DNA from: a virus
Direction: 5' to 3' (one strand)
Virus record (IMG/VR): IMGVR_UViG_3300049216_000050
Span: 1-29,096 of that record
DNA: 29,096 nt
Each line of letters begins with the position of its first letter. Position 1 is the first letter of the stretch. Shown here one piece after another: positions 1 through 28,716 of the stretch. The translations under genes were made by a program, and so were the position numbers. Under the pieces are notes generated by a model. It was not told the origin of the DNA. It made no database searches and saw only the letters and a list, made by a program, of their open reading frames with translations.

Positions 1-1393
1 CCAGGTTGAAGAAGTTGCATTCCTTATGGATGTAGCTGCGGGAACCGCCCGCCGTCAGGAACCAGTACCACTTCTCCGGTTGCGCCGGGTTGATCCGGTC
101 GCCGTACCCGTCGGTGATGACGAACACCGCTTCGGGGTACTTTCCGCCTTCGTCCTGGATCGCCTTCTGGACGTGGTTTTCCAGAATGCTGAAGGAAGTC
201 CCGCCGCCGCCGTAAATCTTCTTCGACGCCAGGGTGGTTTCCTGCACCGTCGTGTCGAAACAGAACAGGCGAATGTCGAACCGCTCGGTCGGCAGCGATT
301 CTGCGGCGGCGAAGAACCGATCCTTCAACCCCCAGCAGCTACCGCTGGTGTCGAGGAAGAAGTACACCTTGATGCGGGTTTTCTCGTCGGCTTCCTCTTC
401 CACTTCCATGTCGGACGGGAGGAACATATCCTTGGGCAGCATCGTCATGCGACGGTTCAGGCGTGCCCACTGTTCGATCTCCTTGTCCGACTCCTTCATG
501 TACTTCCGTGCCCACTTCTTGATTACCGTCTCCCACTTCTTCTTCTTCTTGACCTTGACGGTGTTGGCGAAGACCCACTGCCCGCCCGTGCCGGTCCCGG
601 CCTGCTGGTTGGTGGACTTCTTCTGCTTGTCCTGCTGAAAGTGCTTCTGCACCATCTTCTTGAGGGATTCCCGCTCCTCGTCGGACAGCCCCTCGTTCAG
701 CTTGTCGATGACCGAACCCCAATCGTCGGACTTCTCGCCGCCCATCATGGAGTGGTCGTCAACCGTGCCGCCCGGCATCGAACCCATCGTGCTGTCGCCG
801 CTCCCGTCGCCGTCACCCTGACCGCCGTGTCCGTACACCTTCTCGAAGAGTCCGTAGTAGAACTCGAACATTTCGTCGTCGGGCGGCAACGGCTTGCGAC
901 CCTTGAAGACGGTATCCGTCCAGCACAGCTTGGCTTCGTTGATGATCTTCGCCCGCTCGAACCCGAAGTTGCGGAGCAGGGTGTGGTTGACCACCACGTC
1001 GAGGGCGGCATTGCACGCTTCCCGGTTCATCTTGGCAGCGTCGGTGATGCGAACGCCGTGATTCAGGATGACGTGAAGCGCCTCGTGGCAGATCACGAAC
1101 AGCTTGTTGTAGAAGTCCAGCGACAACCAAAACTTCGGGTTGAAGTGGAACCACACGAACCCGCCCGTCTCGTCGAATTGAACGGCTGCGGTTTCGATCT
1201 CTTCGGTGAAGTGCGGACGCCCCATCTGCCACACTTTGTAGAAAACGGCGTGGTGTTCTTCGAGGGCGGCGGAAATGGCGAACCATTCGTCCCGGCTGAT
1301 CTTCATGCGCTTCTGCGGGTCGTAGGCTTCCCCCTTCGGGATCACCACGCCATCGCCGTCAACCAGATCGGGTTCAACTACTGCTTCACTCAT
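1..1393 (-). CDS. VWA-domain protein with putative metallopeptidase domain (3' end outside window)
   Basis: Reading the minus strand from ATG at 1393 gives 464 codons with no stop before the window edge, so the C-terminus is missing. The N-terminal part has a zinc-peptidase-like motif, HEALH (residues 103-107) followed by NH at 111-112, as in the putative metallopeptidase domain found N-terminal to VWA-like domains (DUF2201-type proteins). A Gly/Asp/Ser-rich linker (about 187-220) and a Lys-rich stretch lead to a VWA domain with a complete MIDAS: DTSGS at 348-352, Thr399 in GGGGTS and Asp428 in ITDGYGD. The start has an AAAGGAG ribosome site and a promoter about 20 bp upstream. In cellular genomes such proteins pair with MoxR-type AAA+ ATPases, and one is the next gene upstream here. 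The family assignment is firm; the substrate is unknown. Confidence 0.88.
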   Translation of the reverse strand, partial: MSEAVVEPDLVDGDGVVIPKGEAYDPQKRMKISRDEWFAISAALEEHHAVFYKVWQMGRPHFTEEIETAAVQFDETGGFVWFHFNPKFWLSLDFYNKLFVICHEALHVILNHGVRITDAAKMNREACNAALDVVVNHTLLRNFGFERAKIINEAKLCWTDTVFKGRKPLPPDDEMFEFYYGLFEKVYGHGGQGDGDGSGDSTMGSMPGGTVDDHSMMGGEKSDDWGSVIDKLNEGLSDEERESLKKMVQKHFQQDKQKKSTNQQAGTGTGGQWVFANTVKVKKKKKWETVIKKWARKYMKESDKEIEQWARLNRRMTMLPKDMFLPSDMEVEEEADEKTRIKVYFFLDTSGSCWGLKDRFFAAAESLPTERFDIRLFCFDTTVQETTLASKKIYGGGGTSFSILENHVQKAIQDEGGKYPEAVFVITDGYGDRINPAQPEKWYWFLTAGGSRSYIHKECNFFNL

Positions 1394-1414
1394 CGCTGCT
1401 CCTTTGGCCCTATG

Positions 1415-1443
1415 ATGTTACCACAATAGAGTGGGGTTGTAAA
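1415..1443 (-). promoter_or_regulatory. sigma70-like promoter of the VWA gene
   Basis: On the minus strand, TTTACA (1438-1443) is followed by a 17-bp spacer and TAACAT (1415-1420). The -35 box continues as TTTACAACCCC, the same extended box seen at 3217 and 5500. Transcription would begin near 1408, giving a short leader that contains the AAAGGAG site. Confidence 0.72.
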
Positions 1444-1448
1444 GCAAA

Positions 1449-1469
1449 GGGGCGGCTTATTGCCGCCCC
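1449..1469 (-). terminator. rho-independent terminator after the AAA ATPase gene
   Basis: A perfect 8-bp stem, GGGGCGGC (1449-1456) with GCCGCCCC (1462-1469) and a 5-nt loop, is followed on the minus strand by TTTGCTTTAC. It lies 25 bp past the ATPase stop and just before the next promoter, so it separates two transcription units. Confidence 0.8.
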
Positions 1470-1493
1470 TCGTTGGGAACTTCCGAGCGGCCT

Positions 1494-3098
1494 TTACTTG
1501 GCCTGGGGCATCAGGAGTTTGCTCTGGAGCGAGCCTTCCTTGATCTTCGAGAGCAAGTCCTTGAACCGGGTTCCGAAGCGGTTGAGGATACCCGTCCAGT
1601 CCAGGCCGGTGTTGCGGTGGATTTCCCCGATGCAGTGGTTGACCACGCCCATCAGGTTGCCCATCGACTGAGCCGTCATCACCGACGGCCACGAATCCTT
1701 CACCGATGCCGACAGCAACTCCAGGGTTGCGAGGGCTTCGTCGGCGGTGAGGGCTTCCGGGATCGACTTCTCGATCCGTTCGTACACCGTGTTCCGCTGG
1801 CTGGCGGTCGTCGGCGGGGTGACTTTCAGTTCACCCAACACCTTGCTGTACTTGTCGGTGGGCTTCTTCTGGAAGAAGGCGACGGCGGGCGTGTTGGTCG
1901 CCCCCGACCCCTGTGCCGTGGCCTGATACGCCGCCGACAAGTCCTGGTTCTCCGACAGCGCCCGGCGAATCTTCTTGACCAACCGCTGGTTGGTGTTCGC
2001 CGTCAGGATCGTCTTGCACGCTTCCTGGAACAGCGGAACCTTGTCGCTGTTGTTGATGATGTACTTGCACGGCCCTTCCTGATCCGCCATCAGAGCGCCC
2101 AGCTTCTCCTTCGGCAGCAGGGGCAGGAAGAACGCCATCATCGTGTCGGACGCCGGGATGTACTTCATCGCCGACGTGTAGTTGTTCTCGTTCGCCATGA
2201 ACGTGCGAGCGCCCGTCACGTCGTTCGCCTTCATCAAGGCTTCCAGGCGGTCGGGGGTGTGCCCGGTGTTCAGAGCGGTCGTCAGCTTGCTGACGTTGCT
2301 CGTGACCGGCAGCACGTCCCTCATGTCGCCCTTCATCCGGCGAACGGCCAGGGCGTACTCCAGACGACGGGGGGAAACCTTCTTCTTCTCCTCGTCCGGG
2401 AGTTCCTTCCACCATGCGATGGCGATCTTCGCCGTCTGCTCGCCGAACTGGTCCTTGAACCACTCGCCGTTCGGCTCGTAGGGAATCTCGATGGTGATGT
2501 GGAAGCGGTCGGCCTGGGCCGGGTCCAGCTTCTCCACGTCGTACTCGTTGTCCTCGTCGTCTTCCGGGTTGATGGCAGCCCACACCATCTTCAGCTTGTT
2601 GAACTTCCGCCCGTTGATGCTCTTGAACTGCAAGAGTTCCATCACGGCGTTCCGTACCTTCTTCGGGGCACGGTTGAACTCGTCGAAGAACAACGCTTCC
2701 ACGTCGTCTTCGGCGAAGGCACGGGGCCGGACGAGATCGAGGTAGGTGACGGCTTCGCCGACCTTATCCATGTAGTCGATGATGCGATTGCACGCCTCTT
2801 CGTCCATCTTCCAGTTGGCGATGATCCACTGCACCGCCAGCTTGCGGTCAATGGCGGCGAGTTGCTTCACGACCTGGAAGGATTCCGCCATCTTGTCGGA
2901 GTGTTCCTTCGGGACGCCGATGAAGTCAACCCACGGGTCCATCGTGGCTGCCGAGAAGTACAGCCACTTGAGATCGTTCCGCTCGTAGGCAGATTTGACC
3001 ATACTGGTCTTGCCGACGCCGTGCTTCCCGATGAAAAGGACGTTCAGGCCGTTCTTGACCCAGAAGTCCAACTTTTCTTCACGGAGGTTGCTGCTCAC
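1494..3098 (-). CDS. MoxR-type AAA+ ATPase
   Basis: This 534-residue protein has a Walker A motif, GKHGVGKT (residues 24-31), a Walker B motif, LFFDE (136-140), a sensor-1 Asn in AAINP (177) and an Arg in DRF (198), which is the arrangement of MoxR/ATPase-associated chaperones. The C-terminal half (from about 240) is helical with no familiar domain. Translation starts with GTG behind AAGGGA. MoxR ATPases remodel target proteins together with VWA-domain partners, and the next gene downstream encodes such a partner. They are transcribed separately: a terminator follows this gene and each has its own promoter of the same type. A role in remodelling host or virion proteins is inference. Confidence 0.9.
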   Translation of the reverse strand: MSSNLREEKLDFWVKNGLNVLFIGKHGVGKTSMVKSAYERNDLKWLYFSAATMDPWVDFIGVPKEHSDKMAESFQVVKQLAAIDRKLAVQWIIANWKMDEEACNRIIDYMDKVGEAVTYLDLVRPRAFAEDDVEALFFDEFNRAPKKVRNAVMELLQFKSINGRKFNKLKMVWAAINPEDDEDNEYDVEKLDPAQADRFHITIEIPYEPNGEWFKDQFGEQTAKIAIAWWKELPDEEKKKVSPRRLEYALAVRRMKGDMRDVLPVTSNVSKLTTALNTGHTPDRLEALMKANDVTGARTFMANENNYTSAMKYIPASDTMMAFFLPLLPKEKLGALMADQEGPCKYIINNSDKVPLFQEACKTILTANTNQRLVKKIRRALSENQDLSAAYQATAQGSGATNTPAVAFFQKKPTDKYSKVLGELKVTPPTTASQRNTVYERIEKSIPEALTADEALATLELLSASVKDSWPSVMTAQSMGNLMGVVNHCIGEIHRNTGLDWTGILNRFGTRFKDLLSKIKEGSLQSKLLMPQAK

Positions 3099-3188: not shown

Positions 3189-3217
3189 ATACTACTCCGA
3201 AAACGCATGGTTGTAAA
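3189..3217 (-). promoter_or_regulatory. sigma70-like promoter of the AAA ATPase gene
   Basis: On the minus strand, TTTACA (3212-3217, extended TTTACAACC), a 17-bp spacer and TAGTAT (3189-3194). It leaves a leader of roughly 85 nt before the GTG start at 3098. It is the same architecture as the promoters at 1415-1443 and 5472-5500. Confidence 0.72.
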
Positions 3218-3271: not shown

Positions 3272-4093
3272 TCAATCACTGCTTTTCAACTTGGCGTACA
3301 GCCGAAGGATTTCGAGGTACAGCCACACCAGCGTGACCAACAGGCTGAACCCGGCGTACCACTCGTACCACTTGGGAGCCTTCTCTTCGGCGGCGTCGGC
3401 GATCATGCCGAAGTCCAGGATCAGGTTCAGTGCGGCGACCCCGACGATCACGAACTGCAACACGACACCCCACGGGCCGCTGCTGTGAACGACTGATACA
3501 TAACTGCCGAAGCCCTGGGCGATGAGATCGACGATATAGAGGGCCAGGATGCCCACCATCGCCGCCAACAACCCGGCTGCGAACTTCGCCGACGGCCTCA
3601 ATATACCCGCCCCGTACAACACCAACATGCCGAGCGTGACGCCCAGGGTTGATGCCACCGCTTCCAGGGCGATGCCGGGGAACTTGGCCTCGAACGCCGC
3701 CGAGATTGCCCCCAGCGCCAAACCTTCAAGCCCGGCGTAGACGGGGGCGAGGAACGGAGCCGTGTTCTGTTTGAAGATCACGACCATCGCCACCAGGAAG
3801 CCGCCGAAGCACCCGATCAGCGCCAAGTTGATGGAAGCGGGGGAGATGTCGATGGCGTCCGGCGGGCGACCTTCGGCGTTCACCACGCTGAAGGCTTCGG
3901 AGTACCCTTGCGTGCTGAGGTTCCAGGAATAGGCGAAGGTGACGGAAAGAATCGCCAACAGGAACAGGGACTTGAGCGCCGCACCCTGGACGGTGAAGGC
4001 GTTACTCTTTTCGACAAGTGGCCCGTCGTACTCGTTGCGGGCGGGGTTGTCGAACCAGGACTTCTTCTTCGGAGTGTCTTCTTCGGCAGCCAT
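3272..4093 (-). CDS. Bax inhibitor-1-like (TMBIM) integral membrane protein
   Basis: This 273-residue protein has a short charged N-terminus and then about seven hydrophobic segments. Its sequence follows the bacterial Bax1-I family: APVYAGLEGLALG in the middle, then NLILDF (retaining the conserved Asp) and a C-terminus rich in WYEWYAG and LVWLYLEILRLY. In bacteria and eukaryotes the superfamily forms membrane proteins linked to calcium leak, stress tolerance and membrane protein turnover. The start follows GAGGAG. It lies downstream of the ParB-like gene past a weak hairpin and upstream of a strong terminator. I read it as a host-derived gene that may alter host membrane physiology or lysis timing. 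The family call is strong; the role is inferred. Confidence 0.88.
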   Translation of the reverse strand: MAAEEDTPKKKSWFDNPARNEYDGPLVEKSNAFTVQGAALKSLFLLAILSVTFAYSWNLSTQGYSEAFSVVNAEGRPPDAIDISPASINLALIGCFGGFLVAMVVIFKQNTAPFLAPVYAGLEGLALGAISAAFEAKFPGIALEAVASTLGVTLGMLVLYGAGILRPSAKFAAGLLAAMVGILALYIVDLIAQGFGSYVSVVHSSGPWGVVLQFVIVGVAALNLILDFGMIADAAEEKAPKWYEWYAGFSLLVTLVWLYLEILRLYAKLKSSD

Positions 4094-4163: not shown

Positions 4164-5426
4164 TCAAGCCTTCTTCTGGGACGGGGCGTTCGGGGGAAGT
4201 TCCCAACCGTCCTGCCACTCGAAGATGTCGTCGCTCGACTCGTGCAGTTTGGAGATCGGGCGACCCGTCACCAGGGCGTCGATGGCCTGGAGGGTCTTCC
4301 GGTACGCCACGAGCGTCACGTTGCTGCGGTTCTTCTTCGCCGCATCCAGCGAGCGGAACAGCGCCTTCGCCGGATCGCCGTCGTCCGGGAACTTCAACTC
4401 CCGGAGCCGGTAGCAGAACGGCTCGATCTTCTCCGGGCCGTACCACAGGTACGCCTTGGCGACCACCGCCTGCACTTCGGCACGGGCGACCGGCAGGTGG
4501 GTGTGAACCCAATTCAACAGGTCGTCCCACTTGCAGGCGAACTCGGCGATGTCGCTGTCGGTGTACTTCAGACGAGTGCCCAGACCCCTCATGATGGCCT
4601 TGCAGAAGCCGCTCGTCCGGTTGCCCAGCGGCGGGTCCACGACCATCTTCAGGCGCTCGGCCAGCGTCCGCTTCGCCCCGGACTCGACGAAGAACTTGGC
4701 CTCGTCCAGCACGTTCCAGGTGATGTACATCGGCATCGGCTTGCCGGACTCGAAGATCGCCCACAGCCGGTGCTGGCCGTTGTAGACCTCGAACGACAGG
4801 TTGATGCCGATGGCCTCGTCCGTCGGAATCCAGCGGTCGTTGTCGATGTCCCGCTTGTACGCTTCCACCAGAGCGGGCTTCTTGTTCCGGTTGCCCTCGT
4901 CCTTGCTCCACAGGTGTTCCAGGGCGACCTTCGCCATCTCCTTCGTCAACATGACGAATTCGCTGTACTGGTGCGGATAGCGGGGGTACATGAACCACGG
5001 CTTCGGACCACCGGGCCGCTTGTCCTCCATCTGAGCGAGGAGGTAGAAGTCCTGGTTCTCCTGAGCCATCTTCCAGATGAGTTCCTTCTGGTTGTGGCTC
5101 TGCGTCACCAGCGGTTCCACCTTGATTTGTGGAGCGGGCTGGGCCACCGGAGTCGGCGGCGGAATCAGCGAAGGGGCCGGGGCCACGTTGGGCTTCGGCA
5201 TCTCCAGCTTGGGCGGCGGCTGGGGCGGAAGGACGGCCACCTTGGGCGGCTCCTTCAGGGTGTGAACCCGCTCCAGAATCCGGTCGGCGAAACTCTTGGA
5301 ACGACCCATCTCGCCGTCTTTCAGCGTCACGATTTCCCCTCCCAGGCCACCACGCAGGGTTTTCGCACGGTCGAGAGCCAGTTTCTCTCGCCGCATCTTC
5401 TTTTCACGGCTCCTGCTAGACGACAT
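4164..5426 (-). CDS. ParB/Srx-fold protein with proline-rich N-terminal linker
   Basis: This is a 420-residue protein. A basic N-terminus (residues 1-20) and a Pro-rich linker (about 59-100) precede a domain with NGQHRL at 216-221, the signature of ParB N-terminal/sulfiredoxin-like folds; phage members usually keep the form NGQHRL plus a following S/G turn, here FESG. The ParB fold can bind nucleotide (CTP or ATP) and some members are nucleases. A helical C-terminal half of about 180 residues has no known match to me. The start follows GGGGGAT and has its own sigma70-like promoter. DNA binding or modification is plausible, but partitioning cannot be claimed: there is no ParA here. Confidence 0.72.
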   Translation of the reverse strand: MSSSRSREKKMRREKLALDRAKTLRGGLGGEIVTLKDGEMGRSKSFADRILERVHTLKEPPKVAVLPPQPPPKLEMPKPNVAPAPSLIPPPTPVAQPAPQIKVEPLVTQSHNQKELIWKMAQENQDFYLLAQMEDKRPGGPKPWFMYPRYPHQYSEFVMLTKEMAKVALEHLWSKDEGNRNKKPALVEAYKRDIDNDRWIPTDEAIGINLSFEVYNGQHRLWAIFESGKPMPMYITWNVLDEAKFFVESGAKRTLAERLKMVVDPPLGNRTSGFCKAIMRGLGTRLKYTDSDIAEFACKWDDLLNWVHTHLPVARAEVQAVVAKAYLWYGPEKIEPFCYRLRELKFPDDGDPAKALFRSLDAAKKNRSNVTLVAYRKTLQAIDALVTGRPISKLHESSDDIFEWQDGWELPPNAPSQKKA

Positions 5427-5471: not shown

Positions 5472-5500
5472 ATAGTACGACGGAACTTCGGGGTTGTAAA
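5472..5500 (-). promoter_or_regulatory. sigma70-like promoter of the ParB-like gene
   Basis: On the minus strand, TTTACA (5495-5500, extended TTTGCTTTACAACCCC as at 1443), a 17-bp spacer and TACTAT (5472-5477). The expected leader is about 40 nt and contains the GGGGGAT ribosome site. Confidence 0.74.
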
Positions 5501-8080: not shown

Positions 8081-8263
8081 TTAGTGCTTTTTCTTCCGGC
8101 TCTGAGCATCCATCGCTTCTTTTTCTTTCTCTTTTTGGTCGATGTACCGTTCGATCATCCATTTTCTGAGGTTGATTGGCAGCGTCATGGACGATGCCAT
8201 CGGCAACCTCATGTGGTACTGGAAGAAGAAGATTTCCTCTGCAAGTTGCTTCCACAAGCTCAT
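8081..8263 (-). CDS. small helical protein next to gp26-like gene, possible gp51-type hub assembly factor
   Basis: This 60-residue protein starts by ATGA overlap with the end of the gp26-like gene, a sign of translational coupling. The sequence is helical: FFFQYHMRLPMASSMTLP is followed by RKWMIERY and a Lys/Glu-rich tail. In T4, gene 26 is followed by gene 51, a small hub assembly factor. Order and size fit, but sequence similarity could not be tested. Confidence 0.6.
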   Translation of the reverse strand: MSLWKQLAEEIFFFQYHMRLPMASSMTLPINLRKWMIERYIDQKEKEKEAMDAQSRKKKH

Positions 8264-9462
8264 GCTTGCGTCTTGCCCTTCTTCTTCCGGGGGAAGAAAA
8301 AATTGGCCTCCAACGGCAGGTCAACCGAGAATTCGTGGAGACAGGACGGACAGACGATTTCGACATCGGTGTCTACACCGAACGGCGGCTCGTTCACGCA
8401 GTTGCGGATGTGTGCAACGTCACTGATCGGCAGGCTCTTGATGAGCGTCTGAAGTTCCCGCTTCTCGGTCAAGCCTTCGATGTCCACGAGCAACTGAGCC
8501 GTGCGGTGGGTCAAGGTGTCGTCAGCCGAAGCGTCTCCGAACATCTTGATCCGGCGGTCACGGTAGTCCTGGATTTCCTGTTCGTCCTTGCCAGTCGAGA
8601 GACGGTAGGTGAACTTGTATTTGGAAGTCGGCAGCACGTCCGTCAGCGACGGGCCGAAGTCGTCCGGGCAGGACTCGACGTACAAGGAGTTCAGGTCGAG
8701 GGTCGTGCCGAACTTCTTCTCGCACTCCGGGCACTTCACTTCGACATCGTACTCAGGGCTGTACGAAATACCACGGAGGTAAATCAACAGGTAGGTACGG
8801 TCAACCGTGAGGAGGTTTTCCGGGCGGAAGTCTTCCTTCAAGCACTTGGAGAAGATCATGTTGATGGCCTGTCCCTTGCGCACGAAGCGGGGGGTCGCCA
8901 AAATCTGTTCTTCTTCGCCGGTCATCGGACGGATCGCAACGACGCCGTTGGACGGGCCGCTCTCGCCGTCATAGAACCGGCCCTTCGACGGCAGTTCGAT
9001 CTCTTCGTACAGAGTCGTCGAACCCTTCAAACCTTCGAGCAGTTCTTTCAGTTGCCCGCTGGACGCCGACACGATGCTCGGTGCTTCGTTGGTGAACTTG
9101 GTCGGAGCAGCCTTCTTGGATGCGCCCTTGGCGTTGCCACCCATCTGGCCGAACCCACGCTTCGGTTCTTCCGGCGGCTTGTTGCCACGCCGCATCGCTT
9201 CCAGGAAGCCCTGGGGCACGTTTCCGCCGACCTTGAACGGGAGTTCGTTCGGGGTCGGGGTGTGTTCACGCTCCCGCCCGCCTACATCACCGTCGTCGTC
9301 GCCTTCGTCGTTCCGCTCGTCCCGTGCAGCGGCCTGACGCATGGCATCAATCTTGTTGAACATATCTGCTCCCGGTCCTTGGGGCTGCCCTTCCAACATA
9401 TCCTCTTCGTCTTCCCTCTTCGGGGGAGTCGGACGGCGTGGGCGGAAAGTTTCATCTGCCAT
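8260..9462 (-). CDS. T4 gp26-like baseplate protein with two CPxC knuckles
   Basis: This 400-residue protein opens with a disordered, charged N-terminus (1-150). From about 155 it follows the T4 base plate protein family (gp26 type): ELPSKGRFY, a VAIRPMTGEEEQIL block, then KGQAINMIFSKC and a LTVDRTYLLIYLRGISY block. CPEC (244-247) and CPSC (371-374) are each followed by an F-x-x-x-L/V-D strand and probably form one zinc site. Marine T4-like relatives of this family carry similar cysteine pairs as far as I recall. ATG follows AAGGAG. It heads the baseplate run 6485-9462. Confidence 0.82.
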   Translation of the reverse strand: MADETFRPRRPTPPKREDEEDMLEGQPQGPGADMFNKIDAMRQAAARDERNDEGDDDGDVGGREREHTPTPNELPFKVGGNVPQGFLEAMRRGNKPPEEPKRGFGQMGGNAKGASKKAAPTKFTNEAPSIVSASSGQLKELLEGLKGSTTLYEEIELPSKGRFYDGESGPSNGVVAIRPMTGEEEQILATPRFVRKGQAINMIFSKCLKEDFRPENLLTVDRTYLLIYLRGISYSPEYDVEVKCPECEKKFGTTLDLNSLYVESCPDDFGPSLTDVLPTSKYKFTYRLSTGKDEQEIQDYRDRRIKMFGDASADDTLTHRTAQLLVDIEGLTEKRELQTLIKSLPISDVAHIRNCVNEPPFGVDTDVEIVCPSCLHEFSVDLPLEANFFFPRKKKGKTQA

Positions 9463-11014: not shown

Positions 11015-11333
11015 AAGCCTGCCCGAAGTCTTCAAGGGCGACGTTCAGAAGTACCTGCAAAATCCTGGATGCGCCTGCAATCTGCCGATCTACAGGCGCA
11101 TATTGCGGGAGGCCGTACCGCAATTAAAAGCGTATTACCCAGGCAAAGAAATCGCCAACCTTGAGGAAGAAATATCGAGGTTGGCGCAGAACCATTTTTC
11201 GGTCATCAACTGTCACAAAGACCAATTGGAAGAGCAGTTGCGGCTACTCGGTCCAGGTCGAAAACAGATTGCCGTATCACGATATGAAGATCAGGTAACT
11301 GTCGTCGTGAACGACTTGGATATTGTGTTTTGA
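10947..11333 (+). CDS. hypothetical phage protein with PGCACN motif
   Basis: Three in-frame ATGs (10947, 10956, 10971) are possible; all overlap the end of the previous gene, and none has a strong SD, so the exact start is uncertain. From 10947 the protein has 128 residues. It contains NPGCACNLPIYRRIL, a YYPGKEI turn, then a helix and a C-terminal beta strand pair ending VTVVVNDLDIVF. I associate this pattern with small conserved proteins of T4-like marine phages, without a known role. Confidence 0.7.
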   Translation: MSQMKQISLMEVKQALRDSRFRESLPEVFKGDVQKYLQNPGCACNLPIYRRILREAVPQLKAYYPGKEIANLEEEISRLAQNHFSVINCHKDQLEEQLRLLGPGRKQIAVSRYEDQVTVVVNDLDIVF

Positions 11334-11339
11334 TGGCTC

Positions 11340-11347
11340 TATATACT
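11340..11347 (+). promoter_or_regulatory. TATATACT motif upstream of PAS gene (candidate late promoter)
   Basis: TATATACT lies about 24 bp before the ATG at 11371, with the GGGAGG ribosome site (11361-11366) between. The spacing suits a T4-late-type promoter, whose single upstream element is TATAAATA. Similar motifs stand before genes at 22001 and 26057. Confidence 0.4.
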
Positions 11348-11370
11348 TAATGCCTAGTTTGGGAGGTATT

Positions 11371-11841
11371 ATGGATGATTACAAGAAGTTCTACGAATCT
11401 TCTCCGATTGCGTTTTGGAGAACATGCGTCGAGAACGGAAAGTTTCTGATGGCGAATCAGGCGTGTGCCACGTTGTTAGGGCACACGTCGTTGGAAGATT
11501 TGTTGAAAGACAGTTCGCTCAATTTCTACACGAACGGCGACCGCCGACATTTGATCGAAGAGATGAGAGCCAAGGGCGAAGTTTCTAACTACAAAGTCGA
11601 ACTCATCACCAAATCCGGCGATCACATCTGGGTCGCAATTACGGCCAAAATCAATGAAGCCGAAGGGTATACCGAAGGGTCCATGATTGATGTCACTTCC
11701 GAGAAGTCAATCGAGAGCCGGGTGTCGGTCGAAACCGAACGGCTGGGCGAGTTGCAGAAGGGCATCATGGCGAAGATCGAGGAGTTGTCTTCGACTCAGC
11801 CGATTCTACCCGCCCGGAATAAACTCTTGAAGAAGCAATAG
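11371..11841 (+). CDS. free-standing PAS-domain protein
   Basis: ATG at 11371 is chosen over upstream in-frame starts because GGGAGG lies 4 bp before it. The 156-residue product is one PAS domain: FYESSPIAFWRTC, a FLMANQACATLLGH block with the usual N-x-A-x-x-x-L-x-G pattern, and strands through residue 110 ending EGSMIDVTSEK, the typical PAS exit. A charged coiled coil (about 111-140) follows, as in the linker of histidine kinases or diguanylate cyclases, but no output domain is present. The last 77 bases overlap the convergent glycosyltransferase gene. PAS domains sense ligands, redox or light and bind partners; which applies is unknown. It probably came from a host sensor protein. Confidence 0.85.
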   Translation: MDDYKKFYESSPIAFWRTCVENGKFLMANQACATLLGHTSLEDLLKDSSLNFYTNGDRRHLIEEMRAKGEVSNYKVELITKSGDHIWVAITAKINEAEGYTEGSMIDVTSEKSIESRVSVETERLGELQKGIMAKIEELSSTQPILPARNKLLKKQ

Positions 11842-13843: not shown

Positions 13844-14383
13844 ATGGCAGCGGAGTATTTGAACAACAAAAACTTCGAGAAGATCATCTCGAAGTTCCAG
13901 GATGCGAAAAGGGAGAGGGCCAAGTATGAGTTGATAATTGAAGACATCAGGGCCACCGAAATCAGGACGGCCAAAAGGAACAAATATCAGAAGCCCGAAT
14001 CGTGGGTGGTTACGCAATCTGCCTACGAGGTTGTTGCTCATCGCTTCACCGAAGCCCAGAAGGATTTGGCTACGGCTTTCTACACACTGTCCGAAAACAT
14101 TGTGCGATATGCAAAGTTCAACCTGATTGACCAGGATGACGCCATCCAAGAGGGGGTCATGATATGCTTCGAGAAGATCGACAGATTCGACCCGACCAAA
14201 GGCAAGGCGTTCAATTACATGACGACTTGTATCCTTAACCATTTTCGTCAACTGTACAGGACGGCCAGAAACTACAACGAGTTGAAGAAGAAGTATCATG
14301 ACTTCATGCAGACTCAGATAGACCCGGCCTCCCGGACTCAGCGGACTCAGAAAAGCCCGCACAGCAATAACAGCAAATCTTGA
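13844..14383 (+). CDS. late sigma factor, T4 gp55-like
   Basis: This 179-residue protein has a sigma70 region 2 core: helical approach (about 75-95), DQDDAIQEGVMICFEKIDRFDP (97-117) and KAFNYMTTCILNHFRQLYR (121-139), the last with the aromatic/basic face that contacts the -10 element. There is no region 4, and length is close to T4 gp55 (185). In T4, gp55 directs host RNA polymerase to TATAAATA late promoters and works with gp33 and the sliding clamp. ATG follows AAGGAG. It ends at a strong terminator, and the next gene may be the gp33-type partner. Confidence 0.85.
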   Translation: MAAEYLNNKNFEKIISKFQDAKRERAKYELIIEDIRATEIRTAKRNKYQKPESWVVTQSAYEVVAHRFTEAQKDLATAFYTLSENIVRYAKFNLIDQDDAIQEGVMICFEKIDRFDPTKGKAFNYMTTCILNHFRQLYRTARNYNELKKKYHDFMQTQIDPASRTQRTQKSPHSNNSKS

Positions 14384-14697: not shown

Positions 14698-15207
14698 TTA
14701 CATAATGTAAGCTCGGTCGTATCGAATGGTAAGATCGCAGACGACGAGATCGCTGGATTGCATGTCCAAGTCGCCGAACTCTACGCTCTGAACCCATGCG
14801 TTCTCGAACACCCAAGTTTCGATAGTCACACCGCAGCCGTCGTACATTTCGAGCATGACCCGATCTTTTTTGAACCCGTTGCAAGACGGTTTGAACTCGG
14901 AGTCACCCGCCGGATTGTAGATCGTGTCGATCCAATTAAGAACGGGATGCCCACCGGGGACTTTCACTTCGTACAAAGTCAGGTTGACGGGCTTCCATTC
15001 CGGTTTGGCGGGAAAGTACACCGTCTCCGAGAGATGCTGCGCCTCCATTTCTTTGAACGACAAATTCGGCCTCGCTCCCTTGGAGGGCGGCAGCGAGTTC
15101 ACTCCTTCTGCACTTACCGATGGTATTTTGAACAACCAGCGGTGCTTTCTTTTCAAACACGACCCCACGTTGTCGAGTCCGAAGTCGAATCCCATAGCTC
15201 TTGCCAT
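14698..15207 (-). CDS. tail-tube protein (gp19-like), copy B
   Basis: The first in-frame start is TTG at 15213, but ATG at 15207 sits 7 bp from GGAGG and gives MARAMGFDFG, so it is preferred (169 residues). It is homologous to the tube protein at 15304: KRKHRWLFKIP matches KRKYRWTFFLR, ARPNLSFKEMEAQHL matches ARPNLTIEETEINFL, and YDGCGVTIETWVFENAWVQSVEFGDLDM matches the same block there. It is probably a minor or second tube component. The two genes are separated by two terminator hairpins, which may lower expression of this copy. Confidence 0.82.
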   Translation of the reverse strand: MARAMGFDFGLDNVGSCLKRKHRWLFKIPSVSAEGVNSLPPSKGARPNLSFKEMEAQHLSETVYFPAKPEWKPVNLTLYEVKVPGGHPVLNWIDTIYNPAGDSEFKPSCNGFKKDRVMLEMYDGCGVTIETWVFENAWVQSVEFGDLDMQSSDLVVCDLTIRYDRAYIM

Positions 15208-15226
15208 CTTCAATCCTCCAAAAGAA

Positions 15227-15253
15227 AAAGCCCACGCTTTGAGGCGGGGCTTT
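15227..15253 (-). terminator. terminator hairpin 2 between the tube genes
   Basis: AAAGCCC (15227-15233), a bulged A, then CGC pairs with GCG and GGGCTTT (15247-15253). On the minus strand the hairpin is followed by T-rich sequence (TTTTCTTT). It is the downstream partner of the hairpin at 15258-15288. Confidence 0.68.
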
Positions 15254-15257
15254 GTTT

Positions 15258-15288
15258 AACCCGTCGGAATACAAGAGTCCGACGGGTT
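15258..15288 (-). terminator. terminator hairpin 1 between the tube genes
   Basis: A perfect 11-bp stem, AACCCGTCGGA (15258-15268) with TCCGACGGGTT (15278-15288), begins 15 bp past the stop of the tube gene at 15304. The flank has few T residues on the minus strand, so it may attenuate or protect the 3' end of the abundant tube message. Confidence 0.68.
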
Positions 15289-15303
15289 GTATTTCTACTT
15301 CGA

Positions 15304-15885
15304 TTAGGACGACGGGCAACCGTCGCAGCACGGCTGGAACTGCATTCCGCAGAATGGCGTGTACTTGACTTCCGAGTAACGTAGAGTCAACTCGATTGTC
15401 ACTTCTTCCGACGAGGAGTAGTCCAACTCGCCGAAGTTGATGGCCTGCGGCCAAATGTTGCCAAGCTGCCAAAGTTCCATGACGTTACCGCAACCGTCAT
15501 ACAGGGCCAAGTCAGCCGAACCCGAATAGCCTCTGACGTTACCGCCGTCGCCCCGACGGGACGACTGGTAGAGGTTGACCGGATCGGTGAAGTCGTAGAT
15601 CGTGGCGAGCCACGAGTACAGACCGCCCAATGCGTTGTTGCCGCCGATGTCGTAGTAAGTGACAGTGATGGTTTCCCATGTGCCCTTACCCGGAATCCAC
15701 ATCTTGCCGTGCAAGAAGTTGATTTCAGTTTCTTCAATCGTCAGGTTCGGCCTAGCCGCCAACTTGACAACTTGTTCGCCAATCGGTGGTCCGCACGGCG
15801 TCCTCAAGAAGAAGGTCCAACGATACTTTCTTTTGAAGACAATGTTTGGCCCGCCCAACTGTCCCATACCCATAGGTCTGCCCAT
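15304..15885 (-). CDS. major tail-tube protein (gp19-like) with Cys-rich tail
   Basis: This 193-residue protein follows directly behind the sheath gene, the usual place of gp19 after gp18. It has the tube-family start (KRKYRWTFFLRTP), a long loop, the LALYDGCGNVMELWQL block and a terminal LTLRYSEV strand. Four Cys occur in the last 15 residues (179, 186, 187, 190). ATG is preceded by GGAGAG. Tube proteins stack as hexamer rings within the sheath and form the DNA channel. Because it follows the sheath within the same operon, I assign this copy as the major tube protein. Confidence 0.88.
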   Translation of the reverse strand: MGRPMGMGQLGGPNIVFKRKYRWTFFLRTPCGPPIGEQVVKLAARPNLTIEETEINFLHGKMWIPGKGTWETITVTYYDIGGNNALGGLYSWLATIYDFTDPVNLYQSSRRGDGGNVRGYSGSADLALYDGCGNVMELWQLGNIWPQAINFGELDYSSSEEVTIELTLRYSEVKYTPFCGMQFQPCCDGCPSS

Positions 15886-27508: not shown

Positions 27509-28102
27509 ATGAAGAGATTCGAGGATTGGAAACAAGAACTGGCCGTCGATCCTGCTACGATCCAGAAGATCGGGCAAGAAGAGTTCGCACGGACGTGCTT
27601 GGAGTATTTCCGGGTCGTATTGTGCGGCGGGCTGAAGACGTATCACGAACACCGGCAGGCGAATCTCGCCGAAGCGGTCGAGACTTCTCGATACGCCGTC
27701 GAAGTGAACTTCCGCACCACTGCCAAGGAAGCCCAGGAAGGCTTCGCCAAGATCGCCCTGGGATATGTCTCTGCGGCTTTGAAGAACCACGGCTTCCACA
27801 CCAAGCACGTCTTCACCGAGAAACCGCTAAGGCTTATGGTTTCGAGCCGTAATTGGGACGACGGCGAGTGGTCGGGTTGTGTCACCTGGAACCACGAGCA
27901 TAACTGCTTCGTTATATCCAAAGGTTTCTATAACCGTGAAAGGAAGACCGTATCCCTCCAAAACAGCAAGAAATGCACGGGTGACTCGGCAGCCGAGATC
28001 GCCAAAGAACTCCACAACATGATGCACGGGGCCAAAAACGAACCCGACCGGCACATGGAAAAACTCAAGCCAGTACCGCTCAAAAGAGGTCCGAAGACAT
28101 GA
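27509..28102 (+). CDS. hypothetical protein with FEDW N-terminus
   Basis: ATG at 27509 follows GGGGAG and gives 197 residues. It starts MKRFEDWKQELAVD. The middle contains a beta-rich domain (about 85-150: LRLMVSSRNWDDGEWSGCVTW...) that I cannot name, and the C-terminus is basic (MEKLKPVPLKRGPKT). The next gene starts within its stop (ATGA). Function unknown. Confidence 0.72.
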   Translation: MKRFEDWKQELAVDPATIQKIGQEEFARTCLEYFRVVLCGGLKTYHEHRQANLAEAVETSRYAVEVNFRTTAKEAQEGFAKIALGYVSAALKNHGFHTKHVFTEKPLRLMVSSRNWDDGEWSGCVTWNHEHNCFVISKGFYNRERKTVSLQNSKKCTGDSAAEIAKELHNMMHGAKNEPDRHMEKLKPVPLKRGPKT

Positions 28103-28716
28103 TCGACCCGAAAACCGGCCACGAGTACAACAACGTCTGCTGCAAGTGCGGGAAGCCTTTTGGGGCATGGTTCCACGGGCAGGGGGTCATTTGTTCAGTA
28201 TGCTCAGAGTGGGGTATCACACGAAAAGATGTTTTCCCAACTCTGGCCGATCTCTTCGAGGGCAAGGGCGACCTGGGCACGCTCGGAGCGGGTATGGTTT
28301 TCACGGACGGGAAGAGCATCCTGTTGCTCAAGCGTGAGAAAGGCGACGAAAAAGAGACGTGGTGCATCCCCGGTGGGCGGGCCGACGAGGGCGAAACGCC
28401 GATGGACTGTGCCATGCGAGAAACCAAGGAAGAAATCGGCAAGTTACCTGACAGCAAGGAGTTCGGTCACTTCGACATGAAAGATAAGTCTTACCACTTC
28501 CACGTCTATCTGATGGCGGTGAAAAAGGAATTCAAGGTCAAACTAAGTGACGAACATTCAGATTACGAGTGGATCAAGCTGGACAAACTTGAGGATTATC
28601 GCCTCCACCCGAAGCTGAAGGTGTCGCTCCCGACCTACCTGAAGTCCATTGCTAAACATTTCGGCGGGACGGCAAAAACCTTCTCTGAGTGGCTGGACAG
28701 CAGACAAAAAGGCTGA
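28099..28716 (+). CDS. zinc-ribbon/Nudix hydrolase
   Basis: This 205-residue protein has a four-Cys zinc ribbon (C14/C17 and C32/C35) then a Nudix domain. The Nudix box is complete at G93, E99, R107, E108, E111, E112 (GRADEGETPMDCAMRETKEEIG). Nudix enzymes cleave nucleoside diphosphates linked to other groups (dNTPs, ADP-ribose, NADH, mRNA caps). The C-terminus ends TFSEWLDSRQKG, again an F-x-x-W pattern, here at the other end. ATGA overlap places it in one unit with the previous genes. Confidence 0.9.
   Translation: MIDPKTGHEYNNVCCKCGKPFGAWFHGQGVICSVCSEWGITRKDVFPTLADLFEGKGDLGTLGAGMVFTDGKSILLLKREKGDEKETWCIPGGRADEGETPMDCAMRETKEEIGKLPDSKEFGHFDMKDKSYHFHVYLMAVKKEFKVKLSDEHSDYEWIKLDKLEDYRLHPKLKVSLPTYLKSIAKHFGGTAKTFSEWLDSRQKG

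Follow-up and report, generated by a model that had tools for sequence, protein, structure and literature searches.

The stretch of DNA analysed here, called the window below, is the whole of a 29-kb viral record (IMGVR_UViG_3300049216_000050; 29,096 nucleotides) which carries a T4-like tail module including sheath, tube, sheath stabiliser, baseplate hub and neck genes. Two adjacent genes on the minus strand occupy the left end of the window, one for a MoxR-type AAA+ ATPase and one for a protein combining a metallopeptidase-like domain with a VWA domain. The gene order of the window is collinear with that of a 532-kb relative at 399-427 kb. The main features are:

2-1393, minus strand: gene for a DUF2201_N metallopeptidase-like plus VWA (MIDAS) protein, 464 aa (open reading frame, motifs, profiles, structure model)
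1415-1443, minus strand: promoter-like sequence TTTACAACCCCACTCTATTGTGGTAACAT before the VWA gene; counterpart at 425505 in the 532-kb relative
About 1447-1470, minus strand: terminator-like hairpin between the ATPase and VWA genes, GAGGGGCGGC-AATAA-GCCGCCCCTT followed by a T-rich tail
1494-3098, minus strand: gene for a MoxR-type AAA+ ATPase, 534 aa (open reading frame, motifs, profile matches, Foldseek); AAA+ core at about residues 1-260, then an all-helical C-terminal region
3189-3217, minus strand: promoter-like sequence TTTACAACCATGCGTTTTCGGAGTAGTAT before the ATPase gene; counterpart at 423722 in the 532-kb relative
4164-5426, minus strand: phrog_5931 gene (E=3e-20), a conserved neighbour with the same promoter class
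5472-5500, minus strand: promoter-like sequence TTTACAACCCCGAAGTTCCGTCGTACTAT before the phrog_5931 gene (pattern match)
8260-9462, minus strand: T4-baseplate-type gene, a conserved neighbour upstream of the pair (Pfam T4_baseplate 3e-19; phrog_150 baseplate hub 3e-24)

Several other genes of the window deserve mention in their own right. A Bax inhibitor-1 family membrane protein (3272-4093, minus strand; Pfam BaxI_1 2e-65, no PHROG match) is encoded between the phrog_5931 and ATPase genes. It is missing from this position in the 532-kb relative and has relatives in just 5 of 50,697 phage records; a YccA/FtsH-type role would be a guess. A sigma-70 region 2 protein (13844-14383, plus strand), located amid the tail genes and kept in many relatives, might read the phage's own promoters. 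The tail module also includes tandem tail-tube paralogues (14698-15885, minus strand; both phrog_4542), kept in the 532-kb relative, and, unexpectedly, a PAS-domain protein (11323-11841, plus strand; Pfam PAS_9 1e-8). A NUDIX hydrolase is encoded at 28099-28716 on the plus strand (Pfam 1.2e-21).

Domains and conservation of the two proteins

The VWA gene is interrupted by the end of the record and about four C-terminal residues are missing: in the closest full-length relative (L002) the protein extends just four residues further (D-D-Y-E). The C-terminal end, L-x-[DE]-[YF]-E, is kept in most full-length relatives. The protein is organised as a metallopeptidase-like domain, a long linker and a VWA domain. 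The first includes a zincin-like motif, H103-E104-x2-H107-x4-H112 (HEALH-x4-H), with N128, D132 and N136 downstream, while the MIDAS of the VWA domain is complete (D348-x-S350-x-S352, T399, D428). The HEALH motif and full MIDAS claimed for this protein in an earlier note on this DNA were therefore both found, and their residues show little or no variation among 23-25 diverse relatives (35-85% identity). In one divergent relative (L046) HExxH is replaced by HMCQH and the MIDAS reads DTSAS; the peptidase motif seems to have been lost there.

Pfam DUF2201_N (PF13203) matches the VWA protein with E=5e-11 (43.1 bits against a cut-off of 23.2). Its AlphaFold model is confident at about 34-187 (metallopeptidase) and about 340-464 (VWA), with a low-confidence linker. 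Foldseek matches of the model in the PDB are VWA domains and its viral structural matches are phage metallopeptidase/VWA-like proteins. When the VWA alignment was used for a profile search of the PDB, the single match, the heat shock protein 3ied (E=0.021), was not significant. The best PHROG is phrog_1314 (E=1.7e-37), whose label, "HNH endonuclease", is very probably a misannotation, since the window member bears metallopeptidase and VWA motifs. N4 gp25 has received the same annotation.

The ATPase gene starts with GTG preceded by an AAGGGAA-like ribosome binding site. The AAA+ core carries a clade-specific helical insert of roughly 45 aa. Walker A (G24-KHGVGK30-T31), Walker B (D139-E140) and sensor-1 (N177) are intact, as had been read from the sequence earlier, and are accompanied by an Arg finger (R198) and sensor 2 (R244/R245); all five are invariant or nearly so in an alignment of 25 sequences. 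The best PHROG is phrog_1297 "ATPase" (E=2.7e-18). The predicted structure has a mean pLDDT of 87 and its top PDB matches are NorQ and NorQ-NorD complexes, then CbbQ (Foldseek, E from 4.5e-6); a profile search of the PDB matched 2r44 at 1e-4. The HMM searches suggested in the earlier note placed DUF2201_N above its cut-off but the ATPase just below those of AAA_3 (PF07726; 21.0 bits, cut-off 27) and AAA_5 (21.7 bits, cut-off 22). Because of these scores, strict MoxR family membership is accepted only with reserve, and the label "MoxR-type" is based on fold, motifs and pairing with the VWA protein. An NCBIfam search gave nothing relevant.

Between the window and the 532-kb relative, dN/dS is 0.13 for the VWA protein and 0.24 for the ATPase, so both genes are under purifying selection. 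These observations support the earlier proposal of a MoxR AAA+/VWA-metallopeptidase remodelling pair on a tailed-phage contig, with putative activities.

Transcription signals of the pair

Each gene is preceded by a promoter of one class, as the earlier note had stated: TTTACAACC-N15-TANNAT, at 1443-1415 and 3217-3189 on the minus strand. In the window this class occurs solely before the VWA, ATPase and phrog_5931 genes, and TTTACAAC is found nowhere else beyond these three sites. About 0.3 matches to a looser pattern, TTTACA-N16..18-TANNNT, are expected in the window from mononucleotide shuffles. The promoter pattern itself was defined post hoc, once the window sites had been noticed. The 532-kb relative contains 25 copies of TTTACAAC-N15..16-TANNAT and none of a reversed control pattern. 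Over the 62 kb from 389.7 to 451.9 kb of that contig, the sole two copies precede the ATPase and VWA genes. Elsewhere, the class precedes clpX (NCBIfam 3e-172) and genes for a proteasome-type ATPase and PRPP synthetase, as well as ADP-ribosylglycohydrolase, coaD-like and CoaB-like genes. The tail genes of the window do not have it, so the pair is not bound to act at the same time as they do. It may be expressed earlier than they are.

The hairpin between the two genes corresponds to the separating terminator described earlier: its 65-nt region has a folding energy of -26.3 kcal/mol (z -3.44). It was missed by a generic terminator scan of the window, probably because the extended stem takes up part of the T run. 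The gap between the ATPase and VWA genes is 100 bases in the window, whereas in other relatives the spacing goes down to overlaps of 4-74 bases. In one relative (L029) the two genes are 1.7 kb apart and at three loci (L038-L040) they are divergent. Since the genes overlap in some relatives, co-transcription is suggested there, and separate transcription would therefore be a trait of the window lineage. The earlier description of the pair as "co-regulated rather than co-transcribed" holds for this lineage but not for several relatives in which the genes abut or overlap.

Distribution and genomic context

Scans of viral contigs identified 16 loci for the VWA protein and 31 for the ATPase, with both genes present in most. 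In 22 distinct records, which belong to one clade and are hence not 22 independent events, a T4-baseplate-type gene is followed by a 7334-8062-like gene and, just downstream, by the ATPase gene, the phrog_5931 gene being present between them in some records and absent in others. In many relatives this gene precedes the pair. The VWA gene comes next after the ATPase gene in 20 of the 22 and is lost to the contig end in the other two. The window's gene order is also that of the pair in LR756511, a 595-kb huge phage. Among distant contigs, the pair is flanked by tail sheath and major head protein genes in L038, and in L039 the gene for the major head protein is about 3 kb away. The search for the same pair beside virion genes in other phages, suggested earlier, therefore shows that the arrangement recurs.

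Other lineages have different neighbours: NAMPT (L037), GroEL (L041) or tRNA nucleotidyltransferase (L042). Three contigs with the titles Armatimonadetes, "bacterium" and Fimbriimonadales, of 1.36 Mb, 485 kb and 12 kb respectively, also carry an adjacent pair; the surrounding genes, judged by eye, look bacterial. The ATPase is sometimes unpaired, since Vibrio phage phiKT1024 has a MoxR-like ATPase with no adjoining VWA protein, the next gene being nucleotidyltransferase-like. L038 and L040 are parts of a single 350-kb contig with two divergently arranged ATPase/VWA pairs. On a 146-kb contig (L003/L045) both genes are split into several frames, possibly through sequencing errors or decay.

The mirror-tree correlation between the ATPase and the VWA protein is 0.84, a value reached in 0 of 5000 permutations. 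It was set aside as proof of a complex because shared descent alone can yield 0.84.

Relation to known systems and possible function

The pair is real and well conserved, but its kind is already known, from jumbo phages in 2021 (PMC7824862) and as gp24/gp25 of N4. In group 2.2 jumbo phages, a MoxR plus metallopeptidase-vWA pair was described and a role in virion assembly was proposed (Iyer et al., PMC7824862). Like that of the window, it consists of an adjoining MoxR ATPase and a vWA protein whose N-terminal part is a metallopeptidase domain, and it belongs to large tailed phages that have T4-like tail genes. Unlike it, the window genes have separate promoters and an intervening terminator, ASV44729.1/ASV44728.2 being compared here by their published description. 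N4 gp24 (AAA+) and gp25 (vWFA) are core genes of N4-like phages (PMC4193335, PMC7650795) and are middle genes in N4 (PMC4193335). These Escherichia phage proteins have the same best families as the window proteins (phrog_1297/phrog_1314), their genes are adjacent and in the same order, and hhalign gives 98.9% (VWA) and 95.2% (ATPase). N4 is a podovirus and its gp24 is shorter, with 352 aa compared to 534 in the window ATPase.

Another viral MoxR/VWA pair, p618/p892 of Acidianus two-tailed virus, is reportedly involved in tail development. It does not include a peptidase domain (PMC7824862). Comparison of p892 with the window VWA family gave no significant sequence similarity (hhalign probability 1.4%) and homology was dropped for this reason. 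VMAP ternary conflict systems have a vWA plus MoxR core (PMC7159879), as does the window pair; these systems carry variable effectors while the window pair instead has a conserved metallopeptidase domain. No VMAP-like gene was seen among the annotated genes of the window, which breaks off within the VWA gene.

The best structural match of the window ATPase is NorQ/NorD (Paracoccus, Jhaorihella), whose client is nitric oxide reductase. NorD and the window VWA protein both consist of an N-terminal domain, a linker and a VWA domain. Unlike the window protein, NorD is not known to have an HExxH metallopeptidase domain. In NorQD, the C-terminal opening of the ring holds the VWA domain, a finger enters the pore, the NorQ post-sensor-1 loop is touched by the C-terminus of NorD, and the linker is strained by ATP-driven twisting (PMC13036017). 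The C-terminal docking element of NorD (PMC13036017) may correspond to the conserved C-terminal tail of the window VWA protein.

We infer a NorQD-like machine because the layout is shared, the NorD C-terminus contacts NorQ and the VWA tail is conserved. Both gene products would form one machine in which the MoxR (CGN/NorQ-like) AAA+ ring takes the VWA domain of its partner into its C-terminal opening, with the conserved C-terminal tail aiding docking. The MIDAS metal site would bind a client protein and ATP-driven movement of the ring would strain the linker joining the VWA and N-terminal metallopeptidase-like domains, which would remodel the client and possibly cleave it. This client would most likely be a phage virion protein, of the tail or baseplate, or of the head in some lineages, and the chaperone would be expressed under a promoter class of its own that virion genes do not use. 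We hold with about even confidence the reading of a remodeller of the NorQD type, or an unfoldase-protease, that targets a virion component and serves as a chaperone in virion assembly or maturation. A more specific version, in which the MoxR ring passes one particular protein of the tail or head on to the tethered zincin in an ATP-driven maturation step distinct from known prohead proteases, under a separate regulon and earlier than the virion genes, is doubtful. In all of these, complex formation, ATPase and peptidase activity, the identity of the client and the timing of expression are what we infer.

Maturation of virion proteins, one of the options in the earlier note, is favoured by synteny and published precedent (PMC7824862). 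The intact conserved motifs, the likeness to NorQ and NorQD, the retained pairing and the position in virion modules of several lineages argue for it. Against it are the promoter class, which the adjoining tail genes lack and which, in the 532-kb relative, is found before non-virion genes, the middle-gene status of the N4 homologues, the metabolic and chaperone neighbours elsewhere and the presence of the pair on bacterial-looking contigs. In view of the regulatory signal, and of the metabolic surroundings of the pair in some lineages, a host-directed or an enzyme-activating role is conceivable. In the former, the ring would unfold a protein of the host, for instance a component of a defence or a regulator, and the metallopeptidase would cleave it. 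We consider this unlikely, even though the promoter class is common to non-virion genes including clpX and that of the proteasome-type ATPase, genomic contexts vary among distant relatives and the homologues in N4 belong to its middle genes (PMC4193335). The proximity to virion genes persists both in the clade of the window and in L038/L039, and both proteins are highly conserved, which would be unlike many fast-evolving anti-host factors. Countering of host defence, also entertained in the earlier note, left no sign in a PADLOC search, which returned weak matches (E 0.002-0.003) to portions of other ATPases.

As an activator of the NorQD/CbbQO/CoxDE type, the pair would open a phage or host metalloenzyme for cofactor insertion or inhibitor removal, with DUF2201_N serving as a metal- or client-binding domain and not as a protease. 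The nearest folds (NorQ, CbbQ, NorQD), the NAD and nucleotide metabolism enzymes adjoining the pair in some relatives and the putative nature of the protease role all point this way. Yet HExxH together with H112, N128 and D132 is retained in nearly all relatives, as for an active zincin, and no one enzyme gene stays with the pair from lineage to lineage; such a role seems quite unlikely to us. General protein quality control, with a pair of bacterial origin retained for long infections and having no specific virion client, would fit the adjacent pair on contigs with bacterial-looking neighbours (L087, L090, L091) and the promoter class common to ClpX and the proteasome-type ATPase. It is very improbable given that gene order with the tail genes is conserved in 22 records and that the pair belongs to the core genes of N4-like phages (PMC4193335).

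To what is known of this kind of pair, the analysis adds the regulatory separation of the pair from the tail module, the conserved C-terminal tail of the VWA protein and the positions beside baseplate or head genes. The pair belongs to the core gene set of N4-like phages and is common in huge phages. A conserved machine located beside a tail module and provided with its own promoter class offers a testable lead on how large virions with contractile tails may be assembled or processed.
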